NCBI GenBank assembly: GCA_919902775.1 | Contig: CAKKRJ010000004.1 | Coordinates: 186,001 to 250,000, forward strand | DNA length: 64,000 bases | Origin: Burkholderiaceae bacterium | GTDB taxonomy: Bacteria; Pseudomonadota; Gammaproteobacteria; Burkholderiales; Burkholderiaceae_C | Direction of reading: 5' to 3' | Program-made: the position numbers and the translations under genes | Shown here: positions 12,143 through 16,952 of the stretch, one piece after another | Layout: each line of letters starts with the position of its first letter | How positions within the stretch are numbered: position 1 is the first letter of the stretch | Notes under the pieces: model-generated | Databases searched by the model: none | The model's input: the letters and a program-made list of their open reading frames with translations, nothing else | Told to the model about the DNA's origin: nothing

Positions 12143-13345
12143 ATGTCCGCTTTCGTTGAAGCCAACTCACCGCACCTCATGAACACCTATGGGCGCTTGC
12201 CCATTGCGTTGACGCACGGTCAGGGCTGCCGAGTCTGGGACATCAATGGCAAAGAATATCTGGACGCGCTGGCCGGCATTGCAGTGAACACCTTGGGTCA
12301 CAACCACCCCGAGCTGGTGCCCGCCTTGCAAGACCAGGTGAGCAAGATCATTCACACCTGCAACTACTTTCATGTGCCCAACGCCGAAGTACTGGCCGCC
12401 AAATTGGTCGAGTTGTCGGGCATGACGAATGTGTTTTTCTGCAACTCCGGCCTGGAAGCGAACGAGGCGGCCATCAAACTGGCGCGCAAGTTTGGCCACG
12501 ACAAAGGCATCACGAATCCCAAGATCGTGGTCTACGAAAAAGCCTTTCACGGCCGCAGCATCGCCACCCTGAGCGCCACCGCCAATGTGAAACTGCAGCA
12601 AGGCTTTGGCCCGATGCTGGAAGGCTTTGTGCGCGTGCCACTGAACGACATCGAAGCGCTCAAGCACGCCACAGCGAACGACCCCGATGTGGTGGCGGTG
12701 TTTTTTGAAACCATCCAGGGCGAAGGCGGCGTCAACCCGATGCGCGCCGAGTACCTGCGCGAGGTGCGCGCCCTGTGCGACCAGAACGACTGGTTGCTGA
12801 TGATCGACGAGGTGCAATGCGGCCTTGGCCGCACCGGCAAATGGTTTGCCCACCAATGGGCGGGCATCGTGCCCGACGTGATGCCGCTGGCCAAAGGCCT
12901 GGCCTCGGGCGTGCCGATCGGCGCGGTGGTGGCCGGCCCCAAGGCGGCGCACATTTTCCAGCCCGGCAACCATGGCACCACCTTCGGCGGCAACCCGCTG
13001 GCCATGCGCGCCGGGGTCGAGACGATCCGCATCATGGAAAAAGATGGCCTGCTGGCCAACGCAGTCCATTTGGGCCAGCATTTTCACAATCAATTGACGG
13101 CGTCGCTGGGCGGCGTCAAAGGCGTCAAAGAGATTCGCGGTCAAGGCCTGATGATCGGCATCGAATTTGACATGCCCTGCGGCGTGTTGCTCAAGCGCGC
13201 GGCGGATGCCGGCTTGATCATCAACGTCACCGCCGACACCGTGGTGCGCCTGTTGCCGCCGCTCATCATGAGCGTGGCCGAAGCCGACGAGGCGCTGGCC
13301 ATCTTGCTGCCTTTGATCCACGCTTTTTTGGCTGAACAAGCATGA
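12143..13345 (+). CDS. argD: acetylornithine aminotransferase
   Basis: A 400-residue class III PLP aminotransferase of arginine synthesis, converting N-acetylglutamate semialdehyde to N2-acetylornithine with glutamate (possibly also succinyldiaminopimelate in lysine synthesis). Seen: YGRLPIALTHGQGCRVWD near residue 15, NSGLEANEAAIKLARK near 105, the DEVQCGLGRTGKWFAHQ block near 225 and the PLP-lysine in PLAKGLASGVPIGA near 255. The ATG at 12143 is preceded by AGGAG (12131-12135). It overlaps argF by four bases, so the two form an operon. Confidence 0.95.
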   Translation: MSAFVEANSPHLMNTYGRLPIALTHGQGCRVWDINGKEYLDALAGIAVNTLGHNHPELVPALQDQVSKIIHTCNYFHVPNAEVLAAKLVELSGMTNVFFCNSGLEANEAAIKLARKFGHDKGITNPKIVVYEKAFHGRSIATLSATANVKLQQGFGPMLEGFVRVPLNDIEALKHATANDPDVVAVFFETIQGEGGVNPMRAEYLREVRALCDQNDWLLMIDEVQCGLGRTGKWFAHQWAGIVPDVMPLAKGLASGVPIGAVVAGPKAAHIFQPGNHGTTFGGNPLAMRAGVETIRIMEKDGLLANAVHLGQHFHNQLTASLGGVKGVKEIRGQGLMIGIEFDMPCGVLLKRAADAGLIINVTADTVVRLLPPLIMSVAEADEALAILLPLIHAFLAEQA

Positions 13346-14280
13346 CAAAACCCGCTTCTGCGCCCGTGCGGCACTATCTGCAATTCAGCGACCTGAGCGC
13401 CGACGATTACGCGCACCTGTTCACGCGGGCCGCCGAAATCAAACGCAAGTTCAAGACTTACGAAAAATACCATCCGCTGGCCGACCGCACGCTGGCCATG
13501 ATTTTTGAAAAAGCCAGCACCCGCACCCGCGTGAGCTTTGAGGCCGGCATGTACCAGCTCGGCGGCTCGGTGGTGCACCTGACCACCGGCGACAGCCAGC
13601 TGGGGCGCGCCGAACCCATCGAAGACAGCGCACGCGTCATCAGCCGCATGACCGACATCGTCATGATCCGCACCTACGGCCAGGACAAAATCGAGCGCTT
13701 TGCCTCGCATTCGCGCGTGCCAGTCATCAACGGCCTGACCAACGAGTTCCATCCTTGCCAAATCCTGGCCGACATCTTCACCTTCATCGAGCACCGTGGC
13801 TCGATCAAGGGCAAGGTCGTGGCCTGGGTGGGTGACGGCAACAACATGGCCAACACCTGGCTGCAAGCGGCCGAGTTGCTCGGCTTTACCGTGCACCTGA
13901 GCACGCCCAGCGGCTACGAAGTCGACCAGGCGGTGGCGGGTTTGCAAGGCAACGCCTGCTACAAAGTGTTCGCCGATCCGCTGGAAGCCTGCCGCGACGC
14001 CGACCTGGTCACCACCGATGTGTGGACCAGCATGGGCTACGAGGCAGAAAACGATGTGCGCAAACAAGCCTTTGCCGACTGGTGCGTGGACGAAGCCATG
14101 ATGCAAGTGGCCCGGCCCGAAGCCTTGTTCATGCACTGCCTGCCCGCGCACCGAGGCGAAGAAGTCAGCGCCGAAGTCATCGATGGCCCGCAATCGGTGG
14201 TTTGGGACGAAGCCGAAAACCGCTTGCATGTGCAAAAAGCACTCATGGAGTTTTTGCTGCTGGGCCGGGTGAACGCCTGA
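13342..14280 (+). CDS. argF: ornithine carbamoyltransferase
   Basis: A 312-residue cytosolic enzyme that makes citrulline from ornithine and carbamoyl phosphate. The carbamoyl-phosphate loop FEKASTRTRVSFE near residue 56, the HPCQILADIFTFIEH block near 137, the DVWTSMGYE region near 230 and the HCLPAHRGEEV motif near 265 are present. Length is normal. The ATG overlaps the argD stop (ATGA at 13342-13345). A small YkgJ-type gene begins one base after its stop. Confidence 0.97.
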   Translation: MTKPASAPVRHYLQFSDLSADDYAHLFTRAAEIKRKFKTYEKYHPLADRTLAMIFEKASTRTRVSFEAGMYQLGGSVVHLTTGDSQLGRAEPIEDSARVISRMTDIVMIRTYGQDKIERFASHSRVPVINGLTNEFHPCQILADIFTFIEHRGSIKGKVVAWVGDGNNMANTWLQAAELLGFTVHLSTPSGYEVDQAVAGLQGNACYKVFADPLEACRDADLVTTDVWTSMGYEAENDVRKQAFADWCVDEAMMQVARPEALFMHCLPAHRGEEVSAEVIDGPQSVVWDEAENRLHVQKALMEFLLLGRVNA

Positions 14281-14281
14281 C

Positions 14282-14590
14282 ATGTCCGCCTGCACCACCT
14301 GCGGCGCTTGCTGTGTCAGCTTCCGGGTGGATTTTTCCGTGTTCGAGTACGAAGAAGGCGGTGGCGATGTGCCCGCAGGGCTGGCTTCGCCCATCACCGA
14401 ACACACTTGCCGCATGCGCGGCACCGACCACAGCCCGCCGCGCTGCGCCGCGTTGTATGGCAAGACAGGGGACAAAGCCATTTGTGGCATTTACGAATGG
14501 CGTCCATCGCCTTGTCGCGAATTTGAAGAAGGCAGCCCCGCCTGCGAACGCGCCCGCCACAGGCACGGTCTGTCAGCGCTGAGCCTCTAA
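14282..14590 (+). CDS. YkgJ-family cysteine cluster protein
   Basis: A 102-residue protein whose start (CTTCGACCV, residues 4-12) gives the CxxCxxCC cluster of the YkgJ family; further Cys residues at the RCAALYG, AICGIYEWRPSPCREF and ACERAR segments complete a probable zinc- or iron-binding core. Function is unknown for the family. It starts one base after the argF stop, so it is probably translated from the argDF transcript, and it is followed by a terminator. Confidence 0.85.
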   Translation: MSACTTCGACCVSFRVDFSVFEYEEGGGDVPAGLASPITEHTCRMRGTDHSPPRCAALYGKTGDKAICGIYEWRPSPCREFEEGSPACERARHRHGLSALSL

Positions 14591-14604
14591 GGTCTTTTTT
14601 CGAG

Positions 14605-14636
14605 GGTGTTGGAAATAACCGACACCACGGTTTTTT
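14605..14636 (+). terminator. terminator of argD-argF-ykgJ-like unit
   Basis: An 8-bp stem (GGTGTTGG 14605-14612, CCGACACC 14619-14626, one G-T pair) with loop AAATAA is followed after four bases by six T residues. Confidence 0.7.
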
Positions 14637-14659
14637 CTGCGGTGCTACCTTCGCACACC

Positions 14660-14734
14660 ATGAAAAAACTTTGGGACATTTCCCCACCCATTGAGGCCAG
14701 CAGTCCAGTGCGTGCGGTCTTGCGCGAACTTTGA
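14660..14734 (+). pseudogene. kynB: kynB remnant: start and end of kynurenine formamidase joined
   Basis: A 24-codon frame. Its first part, KKLWDISPPIEASSPV, is the expected N-terminus of KynB (arylformamidase), and its last part, SPVRAVLREL, matches the known C-terminal ending of the family (ASPVRAVLR in pseudomonads, from memory). About 190 central codons, with all catalytic residues, are gone. Both halves share Ser-Pro-Val at the join, which suggests deletion across a short direct repeat. The order kynB-kynU-kynA is the usual one in Burkholderiales, and kynU begins 21 bases later. N-formylkynurenine would have to be hydrolysed by another enzyme or spontaneously. Confidence 0.8.
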
Positions 14735-14755
14735 ACGCCTCTTGAAAGACAGCCC

Positions 14756-16042
14756 ATGATGAACCTCACCCCCACCTTGCACGACTGCGAACTGCTGGAC
14801 CAGCAAGACCCCCTGCGCAGCCTGCGTGACCAGTTCGACTTGCCCTCCGGCGTCATTTACCTGGACGGCAATTCGTTGGGCGTGCTGCCCAAAACTGCTG
14901 CGGCCCGTGTGGCGCAGGCCGTCACGCACGAGTGGGGGCAAGACCTGATCAAAAGCTGGAACAGCGCAGGCTGGTTCACCCTCCCCCAGCGCGTGGGCGA
15001 CAAAATCGCCCGCGTCATCGGCGCGCAAACGGGTGAAGTGGTCGCCGCTGACAGCACCTCCATCAACCTGTTCAAAGTGTTGGCCGCCGCGCTGCACATC
15101 GCCGCTGTTGACCACCCCGGCAAAAAGAAAATCGTCAGCGAACGCAGCAACTTTCCGACCGATCTCTACATTGCCGAGGCCTTGTGCCAAGAGCGTGGCT
15201 ACACACTGCAACTGGTCGAAGCCGACGAGATCGCCGCCGCGCTGCAGGCTGATGTGGCGGTGCTGATGCTCACCCACGTCAACTACCGCACAGGCGCCAT
15301 GCACGACATGCAGGCGGTCACGGCGCAGGCCCACGCACAAGGCATCCTCACGGTGTGGGATCTGGCGCACAGCGCAGGCGCCGTGCCGGTGGATCTGAAC
15401 GGCGCGGATGCCGACTTTGCGGTGGGTTGTGGTTACAAGTACCTCAACGGGGGTCCCGGTGCACCGGCCTTTGTGTGGGTGCATCCACGGCACACCGACC
15501 GCTTTTGGCAACCTCTGGCAGGCTGGTGGGGCCATGCCACGCCCTTTGCCTTCACGCCCGATTACCAGCCGGCCAAAGGCATCACCCGCTACCAGTGCGG
15601 CACGCAACCCATCCTGAGCCTCACCGCGCTCGACTGCGGGCTCGACACGATGCTGGCCGCTGAGCCACTGGGCGGCATGGCCGCTTTGCGCCAGAAGTCG
15701 CTGGCCCTCACCGGGCTGTTCATGCAGTTGGTGCGCACGCGCTTGCACGGCCAGGGTTTTGGCATTGCCACCCCGGCGCAAGAACACCTGCGCGGCTCAC
15801 AAGTGAGCTTGACCCGCACGACAGGCGCTTACGCCATCGTGCAGGCCTTGATCGCACGCGGGGTGATTGGCGACTTCCGCGCCGGTGACGGCGGACAGCA
15901 CGCCGACATCCTGCGGTTTGGCTTCACACCGCTGTACATCGGCTATGCCGATGTCTGGCATGCGGCAGAACACCTGCACCAGGTCATGGCCAGCGGCGAA
16001 TGGCAAGACGCCCGCTATGCACAAAAAAACACCGTCACCTGA
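14756..16042 (+). CDS. kynU: kynureninase
   Basis: A 428-residue PLP enzyme that cleaves kynurenine to anthranilate and alanine (and 3-hydroxykynurenine to 3-hydroxyanthranilate). Seen: [13 protein letters not shown] near residue 36, [11 protein letters not shown] near 128, [10 protein letters not shown] near 203 and the PLP-lysine region [11 protein letters not shown] near 224. Length matches the family (about 415-425). The frame opens with two consecutive ATGs (14756 and 14759), either of which could start. It precedes kynA by 10 bases, so tryptophan is degraded towards anthranilate by this operon. Confidence 0.96.
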
Positions 16043-16052
16043 AAGGCACTCC

Positions 16053-16952
16053 ATGAGCTCCTGTCCATTTCACTCAGACACTTCGGGCCAGGCCCCAAGT
16101 GCCCTCGAACCCACCGCAGCCGGCGAACGCATCGTGCACGAAGAGCACGCCCAACTCGACTTTGACGGACGCATGAGCTATGGCGACTACCTGCAGCTCG
16201 ACGCCATCCTGAACGCCCAAAAGCCGCTCTCACCCGAGCACAACGAAATGCTGTTCATCGTGCAGCACCAGACCAGCGAGTTGTGGATGAAGCTGATGCT
16301 GCACGAGTTGCAAGCGGCCATGACCGGCATCGCAGCAGACCAACTGCCCGACGCCTTCAAAAAACTGGCCCGCGTGAGCCGCATCATGGAGCAGCTGGTC
16401 CACGCCTGGGATGTGCTGGCCACCATGACGCCGCCGGAATACAGCGCCATTCGCCCTTATTTGGCGCAGTCGAGCGGCTTTCAAAGTTGGCAATACCGTT
16501 GCATTGAATTTTCCATGGGCAACAAAAACGCCGCCATGCTGCAACCGCACGCACACCGCCCGGACCTGTCGGCCACCGTGCGGGCGGCTTACGAAGCCCC
16601 ATCGCTGTACGACGAATGCCTGCGCCTGTTGCAGCGACGTGGACTGGATGTGCCAGACAGCCACACGCAGCGCGACTGGCGTCAACCCTATCCAGCCCAC
16701 GAGGCCGTGGAAAATGCCTGGCTGACGGTGTACCGCAACCCCCAGCAGTACTGGGATCTGTACCAACTGGGCGAAGAGCTGACCGATCTGGAAGACGCTT
16801 TCCGCTTGTGGCGCTTCCGCCATGTCACCACCGTGGAACGCGTGATCGGCTTCAAGCGCGGCACCGGCGGCACCGGTGGCGTGCCCTATTTGCGCAAGAT
16901 GCTGGACACGGTGCTCTTCCCCGAAATCTGGACGCTGCGCACGCAGCTGTGA
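16053..16952 (+). CDS. kynA: tryptophan 2,3-dioxygenase
   Basis: A 299-residue haem enzyme that opens the indole ring of tryptophan to N-formylkynurenine with O2. Landmarks are [10 protein letters not shown] near residue 40, [19 protein letters not shown] near 67, the substrate-contact region [17 protein letters not shown] near 137 and [15 protein letters not shown] near 267. The ATG at 16053 follows kynU by 10 bases; a longer upstream frame only overlaps kynU. It is the first enzyme of the pathway but the last gene of the operon. Confidence 0.96.

Follow-up and report, generated by a model that had tools for sequence, protein, structure and literature searches.

The window analysed here, a 64,000-nucleotide stretch of a Burkholderiaceae genome (the source genome), holds a kynB gene cut down to its first and last codons: a 24-codon frame stands where relatives carry full-length kynB, before intact kynU and kynA genes. 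Comparison with those relatives confirms it, at the level of sequence, as a fossil deletion, a kynB pseudogene that has lost 552 bp in frame. We consider it quite probable that a single deletion between Ser-Pro-Val repeats made the pseudogene and that the loss is tolerated by way of another hydrolase or of chemistry. Read as repeat-mediated gene loss, the stub is a well-resolved case of a known process; what gives it interest is that this one step, kynB, has been lost repeatedly within the genus, each time in frame. A pathway step would here be changing hands or becoming unnecessary, with only the two ends of a zinc formamidase gene left in the operon.

The kynB stub and its operon

13342..14280, plus strand: argF-like gene, 5' neighbour common to genus-mates; gene order compared
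14282..14590, plus strand: small gene for a cysteine-rich protein, 3' of argF and 5' of the kyn operon, which we take to be YkgJ-like; gene order compared
14605..14626, plus strand: imperfect inverted repeat GGTGTTGGAAATAACCGACACC (GTGTTGG-AAATAA-CCGACAC) 5' of the operon, detected as a stem and conserved in genus-mates
14660..14734, plus strand: relic of kynB after deletion, MKKLWDISPPIEASSPVRAVLREL, with 24 codons and a TGA stop; open reading frame read directly
14701..14710, plus strand: deletion junction CAGTCCAGTG (Ser-Pro-Val), from comparison with the relatives' repeat
14756..16042, plus strand: kynU, kynureninase, intact, 428 aa; TIGR01814 321 bits against a cut-off of 246.4
16053..16952, plus strand: kynA, tryptophan 2,3-dioxygenase, intact, 299 aa; TIGR03036 430 bits against a cut-off of 390.7, obtained on the longer frame 15867-16952

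The frame starts like KynB and ends like its C-terminus, as a sequence-only reading of this DNA had claimed: codons 1-17 are those of kynB, the last 7 are those that end kynB in relatives, and the two parts meet at Ser-Pro-Val, which full-length relatives carry at both ends. Among the 22 loci taken into the nucleotide comparison, the first 51 nt agree best with the kynB start of L002 (genome G068; 46/51) and then with that of L012 (G016; 45/51), and the VRAVLREL codons are identical to those of L012 at 24/24 nt. Crossed comparison with G043 separates the two parts: codons 18-24 match the kynB C-terminus at 21/21 positions and the N-terminal continuation at 5/21, and codons 1-14 match the N-terminus at 33/42 and the C-terminal context at 9/42. 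On these alignments, the two-part match to the ends of kynB is not by chance.

Position agrees as well. A full-length kynB (208 or 212 aa) lies 14-23 nt 5' of kynU in 27/29 genus loci, the remaining two being L088 (G013), which has a PF04199 open reading frame there, and L090 (G041), which lacks kynB. The stub ends 21 nt before kynU, and both of its gene ends lie at the orthologous place among the same neighbours as in relatives, the order argF, small gene, kyn operon being common to genus-mates. Measured against 208 codons, the 24 that are left imply a loss of 184 codons, or 552 bp, in frame. In four loci (L060, L069, L072 and L082), where the protein has 212 aa, kynB starts MKKLWDKLWDISP or MNKLWDKLWDISP, with 4 N-terminal codons duplicated in tandem.

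KynB is a PF04199 protein with a binuclear zinc site (PMC4243253). The stub shares with it codons 1-17, the final 7 codons and the operon position, and differs in having neither the fold, nor a PF04199 match, nor any of the metal ligands named in that report (His50, His54, Asp56, His60, His161 and Glu173), all of which map to the missing part. The 24-residue product contains no His, the metal-binding His/Asp/Glu residues of KynB being absent, and is presumed inert.

A protein query with the 24 residues found the kynB N-terminus of genus-mates over residues 1-17 or 1-19 (E down to 8.6e-6); a few weak matches (E > 0.04) cover more, and all 24 residues are matched in the source genome only (E 5.1e-11). 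By this search the frame occurs in no other of the 90 genomes of the genus set (the source genome included). A small gene conserved in many genomes, a possibility that the sequence-only reading had itself set against a deletion, was rejected, the frame being present in the source genome alone. Within the source genome (25 contigs, 84.3% complete), neither PF04199 at E <= 0.001 nor a full-length kynB query gave a match. It is very improbable that assembly or binning created the deletion and that the organism has a full kynB: the fragmentation and incompleteness of the assembly leave some room for that, but the junction is internal to a contig of 363 kb and has intact neighbours, no second kynB copy was found in the genome, and the repeats at the site reach at most ~10 nt in relatives, which would be too short for ordinary graph collapse.

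The rest of the operon looks sound. The core of the palindrome at 14605-14626 is present in 26/27 listed kynB upstream regions, with one base different in the 27th, and is presumed to be a regulator or promoter site; no sigma-70 consensus promoter was found within 14540-14780, and no unusual RNA fold surrounds the stub (z -1.28). Both kynU and kynA score above their NCBIfam cut-offs, in line with the earlier claim that they are intact. For kynU, median dN/dS to 29 relatives is 0.084, against 0.072 between relatives (120 pairs, 95th percentile 0.095), and the largest window value, 0.100, slightly exceeds that percentile; for kynA the median is 0.090 to 26 relatives, against 0.085 between relatives (120 pairs, 95th percentile 0.126). 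Neither gene gives a clear sign of decay, on a measure that is blind to very recent relaxation.

Direct repeats at the deletion site

The junction CAGTCCAGTG is the counterpart of a 9-10-nt direct repeat, CAGCCCGGT(G), found at both kynB ends in some relatives; where the stub has CAGTCCAGTG, G016 has CAGCCCGGTG. Among 34 distinct intact kynB genes, the in-register exact run between the two Ser-Pro-Val sites is 10 nt in one, 9 in seven, 8 in three and fewer in 23. An exact repeat of at least 9 nt is thus present in 8/34 genes (23.5%), against 10% of synonymous shuffles. In 12/34 distinct genes no repeat shared by the gene ends is longer than the Ser-Pro-Val one, and the deletion that it implies there is always 552 bp.

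A repeat-mediated deletion is the best reading of these comparisons, with a parental repeat that we infer from relatives. The 552 bp would most likely have been removed by RecA-independent recombination, or by slippage during replication, between the short Ser-Pro-Val direct repeats. Recombination between short repeats had been proposed from the sequence: the in-frame deletion between Ser-Pro-Val sites stands, and Ser-Pro-Val codons do occur at both sites in relatives, but the repeat is exact over 9-10 nt in the 8/34 only and shorter in the rest. In Streptococcus agalactiae, indels are described whose flanking repeats have a median length of 8 nt (PMC3637634). The stub is like the reductive evolution described in that report in repeat size and in kind of deletion, and unlike it in that one operon gene is hit, in frame in 3/3 genus cases, with the downstream genes kept.

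Intact and damaged kynB in the genus

Across the 90 genomes, kynA is found in 58, a KynB-type PF04199 gene in 55 and both in 54, KynB-type meaning, by our own reading, rows with a profile span of 2-142 or 2-62; the 24-mer search additionally found a kynB piece at a contig end in G054. Four genomes have kynA and no KynB-type row: the source genome, G074 and G086, whose contigs end within the kyn operon, and G028, where kynA is split over two frames at a contig end. The kyn region was compared for 12 genomes of the genus in which no clear kynB was seen, and the count of losses leaves out G074 and G086, with their contig ends in the operon, and also G011 and G028. In 53 of the 55 KynB-type genes the PF04199 span is 438-441 nt; it is shorter in G034 and G057.

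L105 4748-5179, minus strand: G057 kynB, in-frame internal deletion of 192 bp, 5' of kynU
L006 997-1551, minus strand: G034 kynB, in-frame internal deletion of 69 bp, 5' of kynU

In G057, kynB has 144 codons: about residues 105-168 (G043 numbering) are gone, with the join between RVL codons, and kynU and kynA are both retained intact. In G034 the gene is down to 185 codons through loss of about 23 around residues 30-52, and kynU and kynA were both found. With the ligands named in PMC4243253 and a mapping of our own, the counterpart of His161 is missing by position in G057, and in G034 those of two ligand His are missing and Glu takes the place of Asp. Both proteins are presumably inactive, since metal ligands appear to be missing. 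Short repeats recur at these sites. Among the 27 genes scorable at the G057 site (of 54 distinct genes, some from outside the genus), nine carry an exact 9-11-nt repeat whose copies lie 192 bp apart (eight genes) or 189 bp apart (one gene); at the G034 site, comparison with the close relative L013 gives two BLAST blocks that overlap by 6 nt.

The three genus deletions (552, 192 and 69 bp) are all multiples of three, an outcome expected by chance about 1 time in 27. One way to read this is that the 24 codons are no dead relic but are maintained as a small gene, or as a leader that kynU needs for translational coupling; start, frame, stop, upstream element and a near-normal kynU spacing (21 nt) are all kept, as such a role would require. 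We nevertheless find this quite improbable: the frame is confined to one genome of 90, the surroundings show no unusual RNA fold, three events are few, and the short kynB of RBC009 (below) has lost its frame, albeit in an operon whose kynU and kynA are dead too. Under the preferred reading of the stub as a pseudogene, frame-keeping deletions would persist because downstream kynU and kynA are not disturbed. A further proposal, possible but doubtful, is that kynB is dispensable yet frame-locked in the genus, with repeated in-frame cuts, the step covered otherwise and a translated remnant selected before kynU. If so, selection against polar or uncoupling lesions would keep the translated remnant, and out-of-frame loss, as in RBC009, would be confined to operons that are dead throughout.

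Decay of the kyn operon elsewhere

L108 1-480 and L148 (CADEDE010000002.1): cut kyn operon of RBC009, with internal deletions in kynB, kynU and kynA
L092-L095, L097 and L098: orphan kynU between the same neighbours, in G005, G033, G065, G048, G084 and G041

A contig scan for kynB ends brought close together, which may not have taken in the source genome's own records, returned one stretch, from the metagenome-assembled genome RBC009 (Burkholderiales), outside the genus. Its kynB joins Ser-Pro-Pro to Ala-Asp-Ala-Ser-Pro-Val, out of frame. Aligned with the relative L135, the operon falls into five colinear blocks, and one more block lies downstream of it; the pattern implies four deletions, and about 0.56 kb of operon corresponds to about 2.7 kb in L135. 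At the kynB join, BLAST blocks overlap by 8-9 nt in L142 and L127, overlaps that would fit a repeat-mediated join. A search for other kyn genes in the RBC009 genome found only the cut fragment and weak kynU matches. The neighbours argF and argD and several long downstream frames look intact; argF was matched, and the other names are presumptive.

Ten genus-mates retain a kynU similar to that of the window, with no match to kynB or kynA (G005, G007, G019, G033, G041, G045, G048, G065, G084 and G088), and six of them keep the order argF, small gene, kynU, xdh-like gene. No tryptophan dioxygenase was matched in those six genomes (two of the assemblies being 75 and 84% complete); the orphan kynU perhaps acts on imported kynurenine.

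Such genomes raise the possibility that the operon in the window is merely decaying without compensation, kynB having gone first and kynA or kynU being due to follow. The ten orphan kynU genes, the missing dioxygenase in the six examined (with the completeness just given), the loss of all three kyn genes in RBC009 and the loss of kynB in G057 and G034, which have no C7-type cassette (see below), would all suit that course. We regard it as unlikely for the source genome, whose intact kynU and kynA have a low dN/dS, near that of relatives (the measure being blind to very recent relaxation), and which has a second formamidase candidate.

A second kyn cassette and the lost step

L091 13702-14634, minus strand: C7 alpha/beta hydrolase

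Contig C7 of the source genome (L091) carries a second kynureninase (52% identity), a second tryptophan dioxygenase (38.5%) and an alpha/beta hydrolase side by side. Under the reading that we prefer, a pseudogene whose loss is tolerated, another hydrolase would remove the formyl group, in the source genome probably this one. The hydrolase adjoins the dioxygenase and kynureninase genes and has the HGGxW and GxSxG motifs and catalytic His, motifs common to many esterases. An alignment to the solved structure of the fly kynurenine formamidase, 4e11, has E 5.7e-14, and the lipase 9n8r (4.3e-24) and the putative esterase 2pbl (4.7e-17) are better matches; in NCBIfam and Pfam the protein matches generic models for hydrolases, lipases and esterases, with no formamidase model among them. 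Like the Drosophila enzyme 4e11, the C7 hydrolase has HGGYW, a GxSxG motif and, near the C-terminus, a His that aligns; unlike that serine-type formamidase it has Glu, not Asp, at the aligned acid position, Asp being what we take to be the catalytic acid of serine-type kynurenine formamidases. In the actinomycin cluster, the arylformamidase acnG is listed beside the dioxygenase acnH and the kynureninase acnL (PMC6521150), and the C7 hydrolase resembles acnG in sitting with dioxygenase and kynureninase genes. It is probably a serine-type formamidase, by context more than by sequence.

Homologues at E <= 1e-45 occur in 7/299 family genomes, the source genome included. The homologue adjoins a dioxygenase gene in two of the six others (G171 and G189), both without a kynB match; G201, G294 and G250 have the homologue, no kynB match and a dioxygenase elsewhere in the genome, and G281, a case against compensation by such a hydrolase, has kynB, with the homologue elsewhere and not adjoining a dioxygenase. 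Within the genus the best match outside the source genome is in G022 (E 1.6e-29), and some match exists in 90/90 genomes, so that a general hydrolase could perform the formamidase step anywhere.

The search for another formamidase suggested by the sequence-only reading thus yielded a candidate on C7 and no second PF04199 gene. The metabolic gap that it had drawn from the loss is weakened by this predicted formamidase, hydrolysis elsewhere having been allowed for, and a gap in the source genome is unlikely; given its 84.3% completeness, another formamidase could also lie unseen. Against compensation by C7 stand G057 and G034, damaged in kynB with kynU and kynA kept: neither has the cassette (no second dioxygenase or kynureninase) or a close relative of the C7 hydrolase (best E 1.5e-18 and 3.3e-14). 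The cassette therefore cannot explain kynB loss in general. Elsewhere in the genus a more general esterase perhaps, or spontaneous hydrolysis, would cover formyl removal. Together, the stub, the two relatives' deletions and the C7 cassette make N-formylkynurenine hydrolysis without KynB testable.

No second dioxygenase was found in any other of the 90 genus genomes. Second kynureninase-like genes in six genus-mates (40-42% identical to the window's kynU) were considered as the same cassette and rejected; in three of the six (G072, G058 and G012) these genes share 37-39% identity with the C7 kynureninase, and 8-kb stretches of the three held no match to a dioxygenase or C7-type hydrolase.

Contig C7 is not foreign, since next to the cassette it has matches of 80-88% in genus-mates. 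The matches that flank the cassette are ~170 bp apart in G002, against ~11.5 kb in the source genome, and 1.2, 4.8 and 7.3 kb apart in G025, G030 and G021. The segment absent from the G002 site (L091 6660-18128) also holds genes for a TctC-type binding protein, an M20 amidohydrolase and an FAD oxidase, and one that we presume to be sulfatase-like. Near the cassette edge, L091 17304-18027 is listed 11 times in G009 and is insertion-element-like, presumably of IS30-like type.
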